Virus record (IMG/VR): IMGVR_UViG_3300031787_007614
Coordinates: 248,001-312,000 of that record
Length of the DNA: 64,000 nucleotides
Origin: a virus
Direction: 5' to 3' (one strand)
Under the pieces are notes generated by a model. That model was not told where the DNA came from and did no database searches. It saw only the letters and a list, made by a program, of their open reading frames with translations. A program made the translations under genes and the position numbers. Shown here one piece after another: positions 18,154 through 29,871 of this stretch. Each line of letters starts with the position of its first letter. Within the stretch, counting starts at the first letter, position 1.

Positions 18154-21100
18154 TTAGTTTGCACTCACCTGGAGTATCTTCTTGCTGATGTCGTTGGCTT
18201 CACTCTGCTTGGCAATTAGTGCATCAATGCCGGCAATCAGCGCATCTGTTTCTGGGGAAGCGTTTTCTTTGGCTATTTTATTTGCCATTTCTGTTCCCAA
18301 TACTGTCATAGCTTCTTTGAACTCTGCAAACATTAAATCAAATGCTTCTTTCTGATTCACACCGTTTTCGGCCACAATATCATTCAATCGTTGACCTAAT
18401 AGGGGGCCTGCGCCGTCAAACATTTGAGTGCCTATTTTCATAATATTAGTATCAAAATTTGTTGCAATGCCTGAATTTATAATTTCTTTCCAGGTTGCTG
18501 GATCAGTGATGGTTTGTGATGCTTTATCAAAAGCCCCCATGGCTGTTGCAATTTCTTTAACTGCGGCAAGATCAGTACTTACTGCTCCTGTATTGTAACC
18601 CGTATATTGATTGTAGCCCATGACTGATGGGCCAATGCCGCCTTCGGCCATTACATCTTTGAAATCCAGCTTGATCGGAATTGGCTTGGATATATTCAGT
18701 GGAATTTCTTTGCCATCCATGGGAATCACAGCTTCTGGACCTTTTTCACCAATCAACGCCAGTGTGGCTTTGTCCACCATGCCGCCATCACCAAATGCCG
18801 GGATCTGTGCATGGAAGTGGCCACCTGTGGCATTTTTAGTGGCGTTGTGGTACTCATCTATAGCAAGACTGGCTCCTGACTGTTTGAGCCAACTAACAAT
18901 GCTTGCACCTTCTTCTCGTGTGGGCTTTTTGTTCAGCACAAAGTCCATGGCCTGGCCTTTGGTATGCAAGCTATTTGGACTTTTTTCATTGTGGAATTGA
19001 TCGTTAAATCCTGTAAATGCTGAAAATCCAGGCACTAGACTTTGAACATTTTTAGCCAGCTCAATCAGCTTAGGGCTGATTGCCGCGCCTTCAGCTTGTA
19101 CATCACGATTGGGATCAAATTTGAGGCCCATGGACAACAAATTGTTTTCATTGGCAGTTTTCATGCCTTGGCCGCCACCTGGGCTAACACCGCTACCTCC
19201 GCCCATGCCCCCAGCTGGTGGTGCTGCTGGAATTTTTAGGCCAGTGCCTCCACCCATGCCTGGCGCACCGCCTGAACCCGCAGAACCACTTTGTTCAGAT
19301 TGTTCTTGCAGTAGCTCTAAGTTTTCACCCAATATCTGGGTGACACTGTCAAGATATTTTTTGTGAAAATCCACAAACTCTTTTGTGCGTTTGGTGTCTT
19401 GATCAGTGTAACGTTCAATGCGTTGTATGTCTGTCAAAGTATCACGTTGAGCTACAATTACTGATTCTGTTGTTTTTTTGTTTTTATCGTTTAGCTCGTC
19501 AACAGATCTCAGTATTGCTTGATATGTGCTACCAACGTTTTGTGTGGTTCTCAAATTGTTAGTCAGTTCGTCATTGGTGTTAGTAACCACAGTTACAGAA
19601 CTGCCCATCACTTGAGATATCATATCAACACTGACTTGTCCTGAAGATACAGAAGAAGCCATTGACTCAAACATCTTGCTTAGTTTGTCATTGTTTATAA
19701 TTTTTCCTGATTGCTCAGGCACCATGAGCTCTGGACCACGTTCGCCCACAATGTAGGGATTTCGTCTGCTGACAGGTCCGCCAGCGGCACGCCCAGGAGG
19801 AGTTAATGCGGTACCTAATGCATCAGCGCCCATGCCTAAATATTTGCCAAGAACACTACCAAGGGCAGTGGCAATATATGGGCCAATCTTTCCACCTATA
19901 GCGGCTCCAGCCACAGTGCCCGCAGGTCCAAAAAGAGAGCCAACTATTCCACCTGCATAAGTACCAGCTATTTTACCACCCGCCGCACCAGCTAATGCAC
20001 CAACACCAGTTCCAACCATTTCACTGCCGCCAGATCTGTAAAATCCGCCCATGCCGTCTTTTTGTGTGGCTTCTACCACATCAACAGTTTTACCAACAAT
20101 GAATCCTAGTTTTTCGGCAATCCAGTCTGTGAGTTTGACCATTTGTTTCATAAACTTGTCCATCACTGGTTGCAGTTCTTTAAATGCAGTGGCAATAGGT
20201 TCAGTAACTCCGACCAAAGATTTGCTCATGGCAATGGCAGTGCTGATTGATTGCGACACTGTGGTCTCAAATTTTTCATTGGCATTGCGCTGCATTTCAC
20301 GCAGTTCAGCCATGGCCCGAGTGTTGGCATCACCCAGGCCACTCATCTGTTTGTTTTGTTCAACGACAATTTCAGCAGCTATCTTACTGATGTCTTGCTG
20401 GGCAAAAATAGCCAGTTTTTGTCCCTGTGCATAATCAATTGCAAAATCATTCAACAGGCCCAGCTGAGCCGTAAAGTTCAAGTCCTTATTGAATTGGCCA
20501 ATTGAGGTACCAATTTGTTTGACAGCTTGATTGGCATCAATTTGACCTGACTGCAATGCTTCACTTGATTGCATCAACTGACCTTGAGTGCTGATCACGC
20601 CCTTGACAGCAGCATCGCTGGTAAGAGCTCCAGATTGAATGTCTCTAAATGCTTGTCCTAACTCTGGAGCCTGCTTGCTCAACATAAGATTAGCTCTCAT
20701 CAGTTGATCAGCAGCAGCCATTTGTTGAGGATCCTTGGTCGCTCGCATGGCATCCAGCTTGGCACGGAATCTCTGTTCGCTGAGAGCAGATTCCATTTGC
20801 TTTTCAATTTCTTGACGTTGCATGCCTGTGAGCTTGCTGAGGCCGTCCATTTCAACAAGATATTTTCTAGCACCAGTAGCCAGTTCTTGGTTGGTTTTGT
20901 TTTGACTCTGACCAATCAAAGTTTGCAGTCTCAAATAGCCAGCTGTTCCTTCAATCTGATCTTCCAGACTGATACCAGCTGCCTCTAAGCTGACCCGGAA
21001 AGGCTTCATGGCCGCACCAATGTTGGCAAATGCCTGACGTCCTTCAAATGCTGTGCCTTTGAACAAGGCCAATTCTGCGCTGTTGGCTGCTACTGCATTG

Positions 21101-21630
21101 GTGTATACACCCAGCTCTTTCATGCTCAAGCCAAGCTTCTTGGCGTCGCGGAAGATGCCCATCATGCCATCTGAACCAGCCAGGCCAGCTTTGGCCATTT
21201 TGGTATTGGCAGCAAACAAGTTGTCGGCCATGTCGTTGGCCGCCTGAGTCATCTTAATACTAGCGCCAACTGCGGCTGTGCCCAGACCAATTAGAGCTTT
21301 GATCAAGAACCCGCCAGGCACCAAGAAAGTCAACGCAGCACCGGCTGCGGTAACTGCTTTGCTCATGCTGTCAAGTGAACTGTTAAATGCTGCGGCGCCT
21401 TTTTGGCCATCGTACATGGCTTTGCCGGCTGCAAGACCTGCACCTGCTAGGTTTCCCAGCGCACCTGCTGTTAACGCACTGGCCTTGTCAAGTTCTTTTG
21501 CTCGACGGAAACTTCCTGCTGCCAGTGCTGCCTGGGTATCTTCAGTAACTCGCCCAAAATTTCTAAGGTCGTCAGAAACTCGTGCTATGACTTCAGCCAT
21601 TTCTTGTGATGCTTGATTTACGTCCGCCAT
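18154..21630 (-). CDS. Tail tape measure protein with an embedded M15-type peptidase domain
   Basis: A 1,158-residue protein that probably sets tail length and enters the cell envelope at infection. It has long helical stretches, a Gly/Ala-rich membrane-like stretch at about 80-125, another at about 540-610 (GGKIAGTYAGGIVGSLFGPA), and the tape-measure motifs GERGPELMVPE and IGEKGPEAVIP. Near residues 870-945 lies a peptidase M15-like zinc site: SLHTKGQAMDF (His889, Asp896) and GGHFHAQIP (His938, His940), expected to cut peptidoglycan cross-links. T4 gp29 is about 590 residues and lacks this domain. It is divergent from gp26, a hub assembly factor, which fits a chaperone-client pair. A CATAAATA octamer lies 26 nt upstream. 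Confidence 0.8.
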   Translation of the reverse strand: MADVNQASQEMAEVIARVSDDLRNFGRVTEDTQAALAAGSFRRAKELDKASALTAGALGNLAGAGLAAGKAMYDGQKGAAAFNSSLDSMSKAVTAAGAALTFLVPGGFLIKALIGLGTAAVGASIKMTQAANDMADNLFAANTKMAKAGLAGSDGMMGIFRDAKKLGLSMKELGVYTNAVAANSAELALFKGTAFEGRQAFANIGAAMKPFRVSLEAAGISLEDQIEGTAGYLRLQTLIGQSQNKTNQELATGARKYLVEMDGLSKLTGMQRQEIEKQMESALSEQRFRAKLDAMRATKDPQQMAAADQLMRANLMLSKQAPELGQAFRDIQSGALTSDAAVKGVISTQGQLMQSSEALQSGQIDANQAVKQIGTSIGQFNKDLNFTAQLGLLNDFAIDYAQGQKLAIFAQQDISKIAAEIVVEQNKQMSGLGDANTRAMAELREMQRNANEKFETTVSQSISTAIAMSKSLVGVTEPIATAFKELQPVMDKFMKQMVKLTDWIAEKLGFIVGKTVDVVEATQKDGMGGFYRSGGSEMVGTGVGALAGAAGGKIAGTYAGGIVGSLFGPAGTVAGAAIGGKIGPYIATALGSVLGKYLGMGADALGTALTPPGRAAGGPVSRRNPYIVGERGPELMVPEQSGKIINNDKLSKMFESMASSVSSGQVSVDMISQVMGSSVTVVTNTNDELTNNLRTTQNVGSTYQAILRSVDELNDKNKKTTESVIVAQRDTLTDIQRIERYTDQDTKRTKEFVDFHKKYLDSVTQILGENLELLQEQSEQSGSAGSGGAPGMGGGTGLKIPAAPPAGGMGGGSGVSPGGGQGMKTANENNLLSMGLKFDPNRDVQAEGAAISPKLIELAKNVQSLVPGFSAFTGFNDQFHNEKSPNSLHTKGQAMDFVLNKKPTREEGASIVSWLKQSGASLAIDEYHNATKNATGGHFHAQIPAFGDGGMVDKATLALIGEKGPEAVIPMDGKEIPLNISKPIPIKLDFKDVMAEGGIGPSVMGYNQYTGYNTGAVSTDLAAVKEIATAMGAFDKASQTITDPATWKEIINSGIATNFDTNIMKIGTQMFDGAGPLLGQRLNDIVAENGVNQKEAFDLMFAEFKEAMTVLGTEMANKIAKENASPETDALIAGIDALIAKQSEANDISKKILQVSAN

Positions 21631-21671: not shown

Positions 21672-22517
21672 ATGAACCAAAATCACAATCCACTTAGACA
21701 ATTTTTTAGACAACCAGCAATTTACTTGCGGTTGCCCAGCCAGGGCAAATACTGGCCCGAAGGCAGCTTAGACGTGCCTCAAAACGGTGAGCTGCCTGTT
21801 TATCCCATGACAGCCATTGACGAAATCACCTATCGCACGCCAGATGCGCTGTTTAGCGGGCAAGCTGTGGTCAATGTAATACACAGTTGTGTGCCGTCAA
21901 TTAAGAATGCCTGGCATGCTCCTGTGGCAGATTTGAATTCTATCCTAGTTGCTATTCGTATTGCCAGCTACGGGCATGAGCTTGAAATTGAAACTACATG
22001 TCCTGCTTGCAAACACATTGAGAGTTTTGCGTTAGACTTGCGCAATGCACTGGATCAGTTGACCATGCCGGACTTTTCTGCCACAGTAACTTATGGTGAT
22101 TTGGAAATTTATTTTCATCCCATGAGTTACGAAAAGCAAAATGAAATCAATCTTGAGCAGTTTGAAAATCAACGCATGATGCGCAACATCAGCATGGATA
22201 CTGAGCTCACCGAAGACGAAAAGTTACAAAAACTAGCAGAAGTGATGAAAATACTAACTCAGCTGACCATGCGAGCTCTCAAGTACTCAATTTCAGCAAT
22301 TCGTACACCAAATGCTGTTGTGTCAGAGACTGAGCACATTGATGAATTTTTGCAAAACTGCGATCGTCAAATTTTTGTTGCTGTTAGAGATCACGCAGTT
22401 GACTTGCGCAATCGTACAGAACTGAAACCTGTGCATCTCACTTGCAGTGAATGCAATCACGAACATGATCAAGCACTAAATCTGGATCTTACAAATTTTT
22501 TCGAAGCCGCCTCCTGA
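21672..22517 (+). CDS. 26: Baseplate hub assembly protein, gp26-like (zero-frame product)
   Basis: A 281-residue protein of the T4 gp26 baseplate family. The N-terminal IYLRLPSQGKYWPEGSLDV, then PVYPMTAIDEITYRTPDAL and LNSILVAIRIASYG are the family signature. Two Cys pairs form a zinc-ribbon pattern: CPAC near residue 114 and CSEC near 259. In T4, gp26 is needed to assemble the hub that holds the tape measure protein, and gene 51 follows it. Here the divergent neighbour is the tape measure gene. Close to its end, ACA AAT TTT TTC carries two overlapping -1 slippery heptamers, followed by an 11-bp stem-loop, and a long -1 frame continues. A 353-residue fusion is therefore also predicted. Confidence 0.85.
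   Translation: MNQNHNPLRQFFRQPAIYLRLPSQGKYWPEGSLDVPQNGELPVYPMTAIDEITYRTPDALFSGQAVVNVIHSCVPSIKNAWHAPVADLNSILVAIRIASYGHELEIETTCPACKHIESFALDLRNALDQLTMPDFSATVTYGDLEIYFHPMSYEKQNEINLEQFENQRMMRNISMDTELTEDEKLQKLAEVMKILTQLTMRALKYSISAIRTPNAVVSETEHIDEFLQNCDRQIFVAVRDHAVDLRNRTELKPVHLTCSECNHEHDQALNLDLTNFFEAAS
22493..22502 (+). promoter_or_regulatory. Programmed -1 ribosomal frameshift slippery site
   Basis: In the gp26 frame the sequence reads A AAT TTT TTC. It contains two canonical X XXY YYZ heptamers, A AAT TTT (22493-22499) and T TTT TTC (22496-22502). Slippage at either one gives the same fusion protein. The inverted repeat that would stimulate it starts at 22509, which is 9 or 6 nt downstream. Confidence 0.75.
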
Positions 22518-22732
22518 TCCTCCCAGTAGAGGAAATTGGCGAGTACATTGACAGCCTTGATCAGGAGGCCAACGCAATTAGATCAAACAGTTTAAGATTG
22601 GCTTGGTTAATGCGCGGCGGACTCACCTACGATCAGGTGTTGGCACTAAGTTTCACTGAAAGAAAAATGATCAGCAAGATAGCCGAAGAAAACATGGAAA
22701 CCACCAACAAAACTAAACTGCCGTATTTCTAA
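22499..22732 (+). CDS. -1 frame extension of gp26 (gp51 position)
   Basis: This frame, -1 relative to gp26, codes for 77 residues after the slippery site and stops at 22730-22732. It contains LPVEEIGEYIDSLDQEANAI, SLRLAWLMRGGLTYDQVLAL and a charged helix ending TNKTKLPYF. The composition is normal for the neighbourhood. There is no ATG, GTG or TTG before the apparently conserved part; the first ATG is 38 codons in. It is therefore most likely made only as a 353-residue gp26 fusion. In T4, gene 51 follows gene 26, so this may replace gp51; I cannot confirm homology by eye. The stop overlaps the next ATG (TAATG), which fits real translation of this frame. Confidence 0.75.
   Translation, partial: FRSRLLILPVEEIGEYIDSLDQEANAIRSNSLRLAWLMRGGLTYDQVLALSFTERKMISKIAEENMETTNKTKLPYF
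22509..22569 (+). promoter_or_regulatory. Frameshift-stimulating stem-loop
   Basis: GCCTCCTGATC (22509-22519) and GATCAGGAGGC (22559-22569) form a perfect 11-bp stem with a 39-nt loop. The gp26 stop (22515-22517) lies inside the 5' arm. TTGG in the loop (22536-22539) could pair with CCAA (22569-22572) in an alternative or pseudoknot fold. Confidence 0.65.
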
Positions 22733-26234: not shown

Positions 26235-26825
26235 TTATGATTTATGATCAAAGTTTACGTAAAAAGTTGCCTCTTCTATCACTGTGTTTGGACCAACAGA
26301 GATAGCGTATGTTATAAAATTGCTAATATCTTTTAAATTAATGCCGTTTCCTGTCCAGGTGGGCCGTCCACGACTTAGTTCTGTGTCCAAGCGATCAGGT
26401 GTGATTAGCGTGGTTCTGAACTGCACCAGATTTTGTTTGAATGACTGGGTGCCCTGCCTGCTGGCATGTGCCAGTGCCGCCTTGGCCACGCGGTACGTTT
26501 CAAATCTAGGCTCAGCAGCAACAATATGATGCTCGCCCACTGATCCAATATTAAAGATGTGCCCACTTTTGCCAGCGTTTTTCCACTTGTCGTATACTGC
26601 CATGTACAAGTTTGTTTGTGCAAAGTTGGCCCAGGCTTCTTGTGGTGGCCCATCAAATGCATTGTTTACAAACACATCATAATTCAAACTTTGTTGAGCA
26701 ATCAATTTGACTGCTTGGTCATCAGTGATATCCAAGTTTGTGGATCTGCTGACACTGTCAGCACCAAACACATCCACTAGGTGTTGCCCCAGTCCTCGGT
26801 TACCGCCTGTAACTAACATTTTCAT
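26235..26825 (-). CDS. Short-chain dehydrogenase/reductase
   Basis: A 196-residue SDR from the ATG at 26825. TGGNRGLG (residues 6-13) is the NAD(P) loop, FVNNAFDG stands in for the NNAG motif, and Ser95 with Tyr111-xxx-Lys115 (YRVAKAA) form the catalytic set. The start is chosen because the ATG overlaps the upstream stop (ATGA) and has AGGAGG 9 nt before it; a longer frame from 26849 would lack this. It is short for an SDR (about 250 usual) and the C-terminal substrate region is reduced. It follows two radical SAM genes, so it may act in the same modification pathway. The substrate is unknown. Confidence 0.75.
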   Translation of the reverse strand: MKMLVTGGNRGLGQHLVDVFGADSVSRSTNLDITDDQAVKLIAQQSLNYDVFVNNAFDGPPQEAWANFAQTNLYMAVYDKWKNAGKSGHIFNIGSVGEHHIVAAEPRFETYRVAKAALAHASRQGTQSFKQNLVQFRTTLITPDRLDTELSRGRPTWTGNGINLKDISNFITYAISVGPNTVIEEATFYVNFDHKS

Positions 26826-27910
26826 CTTTTGCTTCCTCCTTGATCCCAAACTTTTGTAAATTTTTCACCGCATGTCATAGCACATTCAAACAATCGATCA
26901 CGAGTAAACGATTCAACTAAATCACTCCACATGGGATTTTCAAAAACACCTTCGAGGCTATTGTTATGAATGTTGAGATTATCTAATCCGTAACACAACA
27001 AAAAGTCTCGTACTTGATTGCGACCACCGGGCTGACTTAATGCATTTGCTCCTGGCATTGATCCATCATAAAATCTTGCATCATACAAATTGTGATTGAA
27101 AAAGTTGCATGGTAATACAACACCTTCGGCGTTGATAGCTACTTTGCGTCCTTGCAAGGCATCACATTTGATAGTAGTAGTAGCAAAGTAGTTCTGTTGC
27201 TTTTTTAACTCAGGTAAAAATGTCATACTGCGATTCTTGTACTGTGCATCACTAGGTGGTTCAAGTACATAGTCACTTTTGGCCACTGGCCACACAGGCA
27301 TCTCTTCCAGGGTGGTGTGATTCAAAAATCTACCAGTGTTTCGAATTAGTATGTTAAAAAATTTCATACTGCTGGCCAGTTGTTTGGCCTGCTCAACTTG
27401 GTGCTCGTTGTGTTTGAATACAATATAGTTCCATTGTGCTCGTCCTCCAGCATTTATAAACGCAGCGGCGTTTTCAATAACTTTGTTGTATTTTACATTT
27501 TTTCTATACAAATGTAAAGTATCTTCTAGTCCGTCAATACCAAAGTCAATTTGTCCGTAGCCGTTCATGATACTAGAAACTTCTGCCCAGTAATCAGGAT
27601 CGTGTACTCCGCCATTGGTATGGAAGTATAACCAAAGTGTAGGAGCTTTCTTTCTAAAGTCACGTAGTATGTCTAAAAAGTCTGGATGCATGATGGGATC
27701 GCCATAACTGCCGCAAAAGAATACTTGACGTAATCTACTGCACAATTCTTCAGAGAATGCACGGTCAATTACTTCACGTGATAAGTGTGTTAACGGCATG
27801 TAAGGATTGATACCATGTCCGTTGAGGTTGCGAGGACACTGGGGACAGGCAGCATTACAATAGCTGGTGATCTCTATCTGATACTCGTCAATAGTTTTAT
27901 AATCAAACAT
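26822..27910 (-). CDS. Radical SAM protein with SPASM-like C-terminus
   Basis: A 362-residue protein. The CNAACPQC motif (Cys18, Cys22, Cys25) binds the 4Fe-4S cluster that cleaves S-adenosylmethionine. VFFCGSYGDPIMHPDFLDIL is the GGEP-type region, and FHTNGG and FGIDGLEDT are the next conserved strands. The C-terminus has further Cys residues (KCDALQGRKVAINAEGVVLP, then CNFFNH, and CAMTCG near the end), like a SPASM or twitch domain that binds an extra cluster. Such enzymes often modify peptides or small molecules. It overlaps the upstream gene by 8 nt and the SDR by 4 nt. Confidence 0.85.
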   Translation of the reverse strand: MFDYKTIDEYQIEITSYCNAACPQCPRNLNGHGINPYMPLTHLSREVIDRAFSEELCSRLRQVFFCGSYGDPIMHPDFLDILRDFRKKAPTLWLYFHTNGGVHDPDYWAEVSSIMNGYGQIDFGIDGLEDTLHLYRKNVKYNKVIENAAAFINAGGRAQWNYIVFKHNEHQVEQAKQLASSMKFFNILIRNTGRFLNHTTLEEMPVWPVAKSDYVLEPPSDAQYKNRSMTFLPELKKQQNYFATTTIKCDALQGRKVAINAEGVVLPCNFFNHNLYDARFYDGSMPGANALSQPGGRNQVRDFLLCYGLDNLNIHNNSLEGVFENPMWSDLVESFTRDRLFECAMTCGEKFTKVWDQGGSKR

Positions 27911-28397
27911 TTATTTTAAAAAAGTCCAAAGTGTCTTTGAGTATGTCATTGCCACTGCGATCCAGTGTTTGTTCTGGACTCACGCCTGCAGGATTGATTG
28001 TTTTAATAATCCAATTCAATACTGGCGCATCAAAATTCAAAATCCATGTACCGTTGTTGCCCAACCAATGACATGGCGTAATGCACTCCAAACTGTAATC
28101 TGGGTACCAACGTCCTTGATGCGTTAGCATGCAATGTTCATGATGATCTAAATCTACTCCGTCGACCACAATAGATTTTAATTCAATATGACGATCATGT
28201 TCGGCATTCTGATGTTTCCAGGCATGCTTACCAAAGTGTTCTATAGTCAATGTGTGAGTACCTGGCACTAACTCTGTGTTCACAACAATTTGTTTTTTCA
28301 CTGTGTCTTGATACAAGCATTGTTGATCAATAAAAATTTTGACTGTAGGGATACCAAAATAATCATCGTAATCAAACTCAAACAAAAATTCAGACAT
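27903..28397 (-). CDS. Unknown beta-rich protein between two radical SAM genes
   Basis: A 164-residue protein that I do not recognise. The first 110 residues look like an all-beta carbohydrate-binding-like sandwich: FGIPTVKIFIDQQCLYQDTV, VPGTHTLTIEHFGKH, and IELKSIVVDGVDL. It has many His, Asp and Trp residues (HHEHCMLTHQGRWYPDY). It overlaps both flanking radical SAM genes by 8 nt, so it is probably made in step with them and may be their substrate, partner or a binding domain. Confidence 0.6.
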   Translation of the reverse strand: MSEFLFEFDYDDYFGIPTVKIFIDQQCLYQDTVKKQIVVNTELVPGTHTLTIEHFGKHAWKHQNAEHDRHIELKSIVVDGVDLDHHEHCMLTHQGRWYPDYSLECITPCHWLGNNGTWILNFDAPVLNWIIKTINPAGVSPEQTLDRSGNDILKDTLDFFKINV

Positions 28398-29871
28398 TGG
28401 CCAACTCCGTAAGATATCGATCTTTGATAATACTCAAGTGATCATCACCTTTCCAGATAGTATATCCCAGATCTTCGGCCAACTTGTGCAGTTCAATGCG
28501 TCGACGCACACGTTCTGCATAGTCAAGTTCAGGTGTTGTGGTACAAATCCAATTGATGCCTTTGGCGGTGTCGCCCTTGATTGGAACAATGTTAAATTTT
28601 GCAGGATTATCAAACATAGGTGTTCCTTGTTCTACTGTCAATCCTGTGCCTAAGTTGCATCCAATAATAGTTCCTAGTGCAACATATTTCTGCCAGCGTC
28701 GTAGCAAGTTCTTGGTCTCTTCAAAGTCGGTTTGTGTTTCATTTGGAAACCCTACCAGCAACAACAAGAAGAATTTCATTTTGTACTTGCTGAACTGCTG
28801 TATGTTAAACTCAAGATCTGCGTTTGAAAATCCCTTGTTCATGATGTTTCGCAAACGTTCGCTACCAGTCTCAACTCCAGTTTCAAACATTTCTCCTCCG
28901 GCACGACTTAGCAGTTCAAAATTGTGCTCTTTGAATTGAGTTTCACTTCGCACAATCCAATAACCACTGAATGTAAAGAATCTGTCAGGTAAATTGTTTT
29001 GTTGATAAAACTCAATGATGCAGTTCAAAAATAGTTTAAAATCTTTGACGCTGCCGTTCATCAACGCATCGTTAAAATAAAAGTTACGCACACCATACTG
29101 TTGGTAATAGCCAATCATTTCATTAGCTAGTACCTTTCCGTTTTTGTATCTATATCCTCCAGCATGTGTGGGGATGTCACAAAACGCACAGCTTCTAACA
29201 CATCCACGACTGCTTTCAATTGGCAATACCCCGCCGGGGTAGGCAGTTACATATTGTTCTATTGCAAAGTCACTATAATCTGCGATGTTGTTAGTATCAA
29301 GATCAACATCATTGACCAACACATCACTGTCTAATCCAGGTACATTGCTACCAGTTAAAAAATTGTAAAAACTGTTTTCAGCTTCTCCAGCAATCCAATG
29401 ATCAATTAGTCCTTGATTTTTTAACTTGTGTGCAAAATGCATCTTGGTACTAAAGCTACCGTTTTGTTCATTGATAAGACCTTGTCCGCCTACAATGATT
29501 GTGCCTGTAAAATTTTTACGCAACAATGGAAAAAAGTCAAGACAAAATCGTTGACTTTCCCAACTGAATACACTTACTGCAATGATCTTGCAATCAAAAG
29601 CCATTAATTTTTCAACCCATGCTTGCAACCAACTAGAGTAAGTTGTTTTCTCCTCAGGCAACAGATTTTTGTTCCATTGTATCCAATATTGATCAATGGC
29701 ATTGGCAGTTGACGGATTAGAAGATTTAAAATTTTGATAAAAGTCCAAATTAATATCAAAAACTTTTGAAGTAACGCCCGCACGATTGCAAATTGATTTG
29801 AGTATGCCACAGGCACTTTGAGGCCGAGTGGCACTCAAACGTGGTATACTTAAAATCAAAACATCAGTCAT
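28390..29871 (-). CDS. B12-binding-type radical SAM protein
   Basis: A 493-residue protein. Residues 1-180 resemble the cobalamin-binding Rossmann domain of class B radical SAM enzymes (LILSIPRLSATRPQSACGIL; IIAVSVFSWESQRFC; GTIIVGGQG), without a clear DxHxxG motif, so B12 binding is uncertain. SSRGCVRSCAFCDIP (Cys224, Cys228, Cys231) is the 4Fe-4S site. FNDALMNGS, FETGVETGSERLR and LLVGFPNETQTDF are later motifs of this class. Members methylate or rearrange unreactive carbons. It starts within the stop of gp46 (ATGA) and overlaps the next gene. Confidence 0.85.
   Translation of the reverse strand: MTDVLILSIPRLSATRPQSACGILKSICNRAGVTSKVFDINLDFYQNFKSSNPSTANAIDQYWIQWNKNLLPEEKTTYSSWLQAWVEKLMAFDCKIIAVSVFSWESQRFCLDFFPLLRKNFTGTIIVGGQGLINEQNGSFSTKMHFAHKLKNQGLIDHWIAGEAENSFYNFLTGSNVPGLDSDVLVNDVDLDTNNIADYSDFAIEQYVTAYPGGVLPIESSRGCVRSCAFCDIPTHAGGYRYKNGKVLANEMIGYYQQYGVRNFYFNDALMNGSVKDFKLFLNCIIEFYQQNNLPDRFFTFSGYWIVRSETQFKEHNFELLSRAGGEMFETGVETGSERLRNIMNKGFSNADLEFNIQQFSKYKMKFFLLLLVGFPNETQTDFEETKNLLRRWQKYVALGTIIGCNLGTGLTVEQGTPMFDNPAKFNIVPIKGDTAKGINWICTTTPELDYAERVRRRIELHKLAEDLGYTIWKGDDHLSIIKDRYLTELANV

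Follow-up and report, generated by a model that had tools for sequence, protein, structure and literature searches.

A single gp26-like gene near the tape measure gene of a giant freshwater phage raises the question whether two tail assembly chaperones (TACs) may be obtained from one gene by a programmed -1 frameshift. The gene lies in a window of 64,000 nucleotides, which is the whole stretch of DNA analysed here (positions 248,001 to 312,000 of IMG/VR record IMGVR_UViG_3300031787_007614, a record of 364,404 bases that may be a fragment). The principle is a textbook one in phage lambda, where gpGT is made from the gpG gene by a -1 programmed frameshift, as reportedly described by Levin in 1993 and Xu in 2004, and a downstream stimulatory structure is common, but not universal, in TAC genes frameshifted in this direction. 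In T4-like phages, Vladimirov, Gautam and Davidson are said to have named gp26 and gp51 of T4 as the TAC-N and TAC-NC proteins in 2022 (Virology 566:9-15) and, judging by the title, to have proposed a TAC mechanism other than frameshifting. According to a review of 2016, long-tailed phages conserve the lambda G/GT principle, "except T4" (PMC5009743). A preliminary description of the window had suggested that the lambda-like trick is played here by gp26, in place of the separate genes 26 and 51. The features on which the following analysis is built are collected in Table 1.

Table 1. Features of the gp26-like locus, in coordinates of the window
Feature	Position	Strand	Remarks
Tape measure protein, adjacent divergent gene	18154..21630	-	1158 aa; PHROG matches
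gp26-like putative short tail assembly chaperone, 0-frame product	21672..22517	+	281 aa, C-terminus ...LTNFFEAAS followed by stop; PF12322
Slippery heptamer T_TTT_TTC (-1)	22496..22502	+	in gp26 frame; near-universal among homologous junctions
-1-frame extension FFRSRLL...KLPYF with stop TAA (22730-22732)	22496..22732	+	predicted fusion 353 aa = gp26 residues 1-277 + 76
6-nt spacer	22503..22508	+	first base G invariant in freshwater clade, remainder variable
Putative stimulatory stem, left arm GCCTCCTGATC	22509..22519	+	holds 0-frame stop TGA 22515-22517
Putative stimulatory stem, right arm GATCAGGAGGC	22559..22569	+	perfect complement of left arm; compensatory variants in relatives

As to its identity, the 0-frame product matches PF12322 (T4_baseplate) with E=9.6e-15 and 55.3 bits, against a curated cut-off of 24.5, as well as phrog_150 (baseplate hub) with E=8.8e-18, and PF12322 is matched by all of the aligned gp26 homologues (50/50). 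Its AF2 model has a pLDDT of 86, and a T4-like baseplate hub assembly protein is the best match of this model in BFVD, with E=4.9e-24. A fold search of the PDB with the gp26 model and the extension gave nothing below E=0.001, and a profile search of PDB sequences gave no match; since no solved structure resembles either part, the chaperone role is argued from homology, from the neighbouring gene and by analogy. The neighbourhood is as the preliminary description had it: the adjacent gene matches two families of tail length tape measure proteins (phrog_5062, E=2.4e-8; phrog_10574, E=1.6e-5), so that the gp26-like gene stands beside the tape measure gene, as looked for in a TAC gene, being its divergent neighbour. 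Likewise in RaK2, the divergent neighbour of the gp26-like gene is annotated as similar to tape measure protein. Further along the window (26822-29871, minus strand), near structural genes, two ORFs of 362 and 493 aa carry radical SAM-like Cys motifs recognized by eye.

In T4, gp26 and gp51 both match PF12322 and are encoded by separate, divergent genes, gp26 ending in ...EFFELL, while the gp51 alignment consists of the PF12322 domain and then a C-terminal domain. In the 364,404-base record there is one PF12322 match, instead of the T4-like arrangement in which the short and the long partner each have a gene, and thus no separate gp51 was found. The extension in the -1 frame aligns co-linearly and in register with the gp51 C-termini (hhalign E=4.9e-5), in one comparison that is weak and short at 33 columns; the RaK2-type extension alone gave no significant match to gp51. 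The match to the gp51 C-terminal domain suggests that one frameshifting gene would do the work of the two genes of T4, with the PF12322 protein made in the 0 frame corresponding to gp26 and the fusion, PF12322 plus a gp51-like C-terminal domain, probably corresponding to gp51. This supports the earlier proposal that a frameshifted gp26 takes the place of separate genes 26 and 51.

It might also be that the frameshift is real and its products are no TAC pair, the long form being, for example, a structural component of the baseplate hub. Annotations do call gp26 and its relatives baseplate hub subunits, and the T4 literature is divided on the presence of gp26 in the hub; yet gp51 is required for assembly while absent from the virion, and both proteins are counted among the hub assembly chaperones (PMC3004832). 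Moreover, the gene adjoins the tape measure gene, and TACs of other long-tailed phages have the same layout of a short and a frameshifted long form (PMC5009743). We regard a hub component as an unlikely explanation.

For the frameshift itself, the first evidence is the slippery heptamer. The frame of gp26 was confirmed by direct reading to end at the TGA given in Table 1, and we compared 125 distinct homologous junctions (the window and 124 loci) from many jumbo-phage lineages. T_TTT_TTC stands in the gp26 frame, with an open -1 frame, at 124 of them, the single deviation being T_TTT_TTT in phage CM1, and the -1 extension is present at 125/125. A scan of viral contigs by N-terminal gp26 patterns only, which is blind to the junction, returned 80 loci, with the in-frame heptamer in 80/80, a -1 ORF of 60 codons or more in 79/80 and exactly 78 codons in 78/80. 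Elsewhere in these gp26 genes the Phe codons are TTT in 764 cases and TTC in 370, and with this usage T_TTT_TTC would be expected, given Phe-Phe, at 0.068 per sequence; the excess is an argument per lineage, as the sequences are related, yet it holds across phages about 25-32% identical in gp26. By tblastn with the -1 extension, the same layout was found in Atu_ph07, Phosso and Vibrio 2.275, all three with the junction TTTTTTCG. The gp26 homologues of Serratia BF, Munch, XaC1, RaK2, 121Q, SCTP-2, PA5oct and GAP32 also show the in-frame heptamer and an open -1 frame, with a few to about 14 codons from the heptamer to the gp26 stop. In the freshwater clade (112 sequences) the entropy is zero over the first 8 nt, that is TTTTTTCG, the heptamer plus G. 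The preliminary description had counted two overlapping slippery heptamers, of which T_TTT_TTC stands; A_AAT_TTT (22493-22499), present in the window, was rejected as a part of the signal, relatives having AAG, CAG, GAG or GCT before the T-run. In the 595-kb uncultured phage LR756511, a gp26-like ORF (1650-2771) coding for a much diverged protein was also seen with T_TTT_TTC and an open -1 frame.

The second evidence is the spacer and stem downstream. The perfect 11-bp stem GCCTCCTGATC/GATCAGGAGGC seen earlier in the window was confirmed and begins exactly 6 nt past the heptamer, a spacing kept in most relatives. Among the 112 freshwater-clade sequences, spacer positions 2-5 have an entropy of 1.5-1.8 bits versus 0 in the heptamer, and the left arm is near-invariant. 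The 78-nt region of the window folds at -26.2 kcal/mol (z = -3.4; 0/200 shuffles as good), and single-sequence folds of seven divergent members give z from -3.4 to -5.9. When the codons were randomised synonymously with the protein fixed, the stem was moderately unusual per sequence (median p 0.055, window 0.06). In an alignment of 35 sequences, 82.9% of stem cells are paired against 29-48% in slid controls, three pairs have both partners changed, and the covariation score is higher than in 500/500 shuffles. Compensatory stem types are GCCTCTT/AAGAGGC, GGCTCTTGA/TCAAGAGCC, GGCTTTTGA/TCAAAAGCC and GGCTCTTTGT/ACAAAGAGCC, and pairing is lost when arms are swapped between types, the value for GGCTCTT being 23.2 with its own arm versus 12.0 with the arms of other types. 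A stem 6 nt from the heptamer, with compensatory changes, was found for the freshwater, Polybotosvirus and PA5oct lineages; the RaK2/BF/121Q/GAP32 group gave no significant stem despite the conserved heptamer, so that conservation of the stem held for most lineages and failed in this group. In BF, RaK2 and GAP32, a conserved GCTTCT past the slip site could pair with a GGAAGCTG/GGAGGTTT-like sequence about 75-80 nt on, for which single-sequence folds are not significant. One fixed stem position for all relatives was rejected, as the loop to the right arm is about 37-52 nt in some and 62-72 in others; at the loci L168, L171, L173 and L192, among others, where the loop is 62-68 nt as against about 39-47 nt in the window type, the right arm is apparently a relocated partner of the same left arm. 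Also rejected was the right arm, by its AGGAGG, as a Shine-Dalgarno sequence for internal initiation, since relatives of the GGCTCTT/GGCTTTT type carry CAAGAGCC or CAAAAGCC instead.

The third evidence is the coding constraint on the -1 frame. Its coordinates were correct in the preliminary description. Its 78 codons (22496-22729) read FFRSRLLILP...KLPYF, and the stop TAA shares one base with the next ATG at 22732. Viral contigs and named jumbo phages alike conserve the frame, in which variation is highest at third codon positions (1.5 bits, with 0.8-1.05 at first and 0.5-0.6 at second positions). Extensions of freshwater and RaK2 type are homologous (hhalign E=9.5e-12), and the AF2 model of the extension is all-helical with a pLDDT of 90. 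A Pfam/PHROG scan of extensions gave no convincing family, and no relative of the extension was found in the GTDB genome contigs searched.

The extension might instead be a small protein of its own, started internally or translated by coupling through the overlap of stop and start, as current GenBank records would have it. A separate small ORF is indeed annotated in Phosso, Atu_ph07, BF, Munch, XaC1, 121Q, GAP32, SCTP-2 and Vibrio 2.275; in Phosso and Atu_ph07 an ATG of the -1 frame stands just past the T-run, the ATGA of Phosso overlapping the gp26 stop, and a -1-frame ATG is nearby in 39 of the 125 junctions. However, 62 of the 125 have no ATG, GTG or TTG in the -1 frame around the site, none of the candidates is conserved, and in the 125 junctions no Shine-Dalgarno-like 4-mer was found at the right distance from candidate starts, which agrees with the earlier view that the frame has no usable start. 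What is more, the constraint (FFR..LL) begins at the T-run, ahead of any start codon, and an invariant T_TTT_TTC with a stem 6 nt on is explained by neither coupling nor internal initiation. A separately initiated protein is therefore very improbable.

The fused product could in principle be due to slippage of RNA polymerase on the T-run, a homopolymeric T6 being the type of sequence where polymerases slip. Six T are, however, short for efficient polymerase slippage. The run is held in a single phase, X_XXY_YYZ, in which C is invariant at position 7, and slippage in transcription needs no stem, whereas a compensatory RNA stem sits here at the standard ribosomal distance; we give this explanation hardly any weight. 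Indel errors are common at homopolymer runs, yet an assembly error, or a recent mutation splitting an ordinary fused gene, can be dismissed, as isolates and metagenomes independent of one another show the same phase in all 125 distinct junctions, and the extension and junction are identical in nine independent metagenome contigs, which also removes the sequencing error that had been feared at the T6 run.

Our preferred reading, to which we assign a probability of about 0.88, is that the gp26-like gene encodes TACs and yields two proteins via a -1 frameshift at T_TTT_TTC. Most ribosomes would stop at 22515 and give the short form of 281 aa, the equivalent of T4 gp26. A minority, paused by the stem 6 nt downstream, would re-pair on the heptamer in the -1 frame and continue to the 353-aa form, with a helical C-terminal domain equivalent to the gp51 C-terminus. 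If lambda gpG/gpGT is taken as the model, the part common to both forms would cover the tape measure protein encoded next door, while tail-tube subunits would be brought in by the C-terminal domain, which is the rarer part. The slippery site, the spacer, the compensatory stem, the coding constraint of the -1 frame and the homology with gp26/gp51 are features of the sequences, from which we infer frameshifting in the cell and its efficiency; homology, gene neighbourhood, the literature on gp26/gp51 as chaperones and analogy point to a chaperone role on the tape measure protein. Thus the lambda-like trick proposed for a T4-like gp26 holds as a frameshift signal, and its chaperone step is a prediction by analogy.

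With lambda the locus shares a short chaperone with a minor -1-extended form and an adjacent tape measure gene, and a conserved slip site, a -1 ORF without a conserved start and a downstream stem are found here as in genes of the G/GT type. It differs in that the protein is unrelated-looking, larger and of T4 type (281 + 76 aa), with T_TTT_TTC and a downstream stem, and in that its tape measure gene is on the other strand, whereas in lambda G/GT is flanked by the tail tube and tape measure genes of a single operon. Another likeness is phage Adele (Vandenendeviridae/Andersonviridae), a myophage for which the excerpt of PMC12846349 describes a -1 frameshift at poly-T, with an invariant GTTTTT, near the end of TAC-N, and a downstream ORF formerly annotated as a separate hypothetical protein. 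Adele belongs to another phage group, the likeness being one of locus description, and a stem is unmentioned in that excerpt. The same paper cites Vladimirov et al. 2022 when it speaks of TAC-N genes of T4-like phages with poly-T slippery signals, and PMC10274946 cites it for the TACs of T4-like phages. The preliminary description knew of no such frameshift in gp26; this stands in part, because gp26/gp51 had reportedly been named as the T4-like TAC pair in 2022, while the jumbo-phage signal was found in no paper searched. Vladimirov et al. 2022 aside, the literature searched gave no account of a conserved T_TTT_TTC plus stem in jumbo phages, nor of a change of frameshift direction within the gp26 family; part of the jumbo-phage result may already be in print there.

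Such a change of direction is suggested by a sister branch. In the gp26 relatives of the Mel-JY01/immuto group (62 distinct junctions) the extension is present in the +1 frame, and the junctions read TTTTTTT-GGCCT in 57, CTTTTTT-GGCC in 3 and a T7 variant with ACCC in 2. The gp26-like genes of this branch mostly end in FFWP, with TTTTTTGGCC in 60/62 junctions. The profile of the +1 extension matches the -1 extension with E=1.2e-4, and gp51 more weakly with 0.0055. Judged by sequence, the homologous gene may be read with a +1 slip, by re-pairing on UUU_U, or with a slip of -2. It seems fairly probable, from these comparisons, that the TAC family is expressed in three ways, namely by a -1 shift on T_TTT_TTC with a stem (the window, RaK2/121Q/Atu_ph07/PA5oct), by a +1/-2 shift, and, in T4 and the phages close to it, by two genes, in which case frameshifting would be ancestral and the T4 state derived by duplication and fusion. 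If so, this derived duplication and fusion would be visible in the gp51 C-terminus.

In the annotated relatives whose records were examined there is no joined CDS, and the extension is omitted, cut down, or entered with an arbitrary start codon as a hypothetical protein of its own. It is annotated apart as gp687, CDS 319, gp247 (BF), Munch_275, PBI_121Q_595 and NVP2275O_435, and is absent from RaK2 and PA5oct. As the fusion is unrecorded in them, such genomes would need a joined CDS. Among jumbo phages whose tail chaperones are of T4 type, a large group very probably uses the frameshift, with a slippery signal that is almost perfectly conserved across it, and the data suggest how the two genes of T4, 26 and 51, arose.
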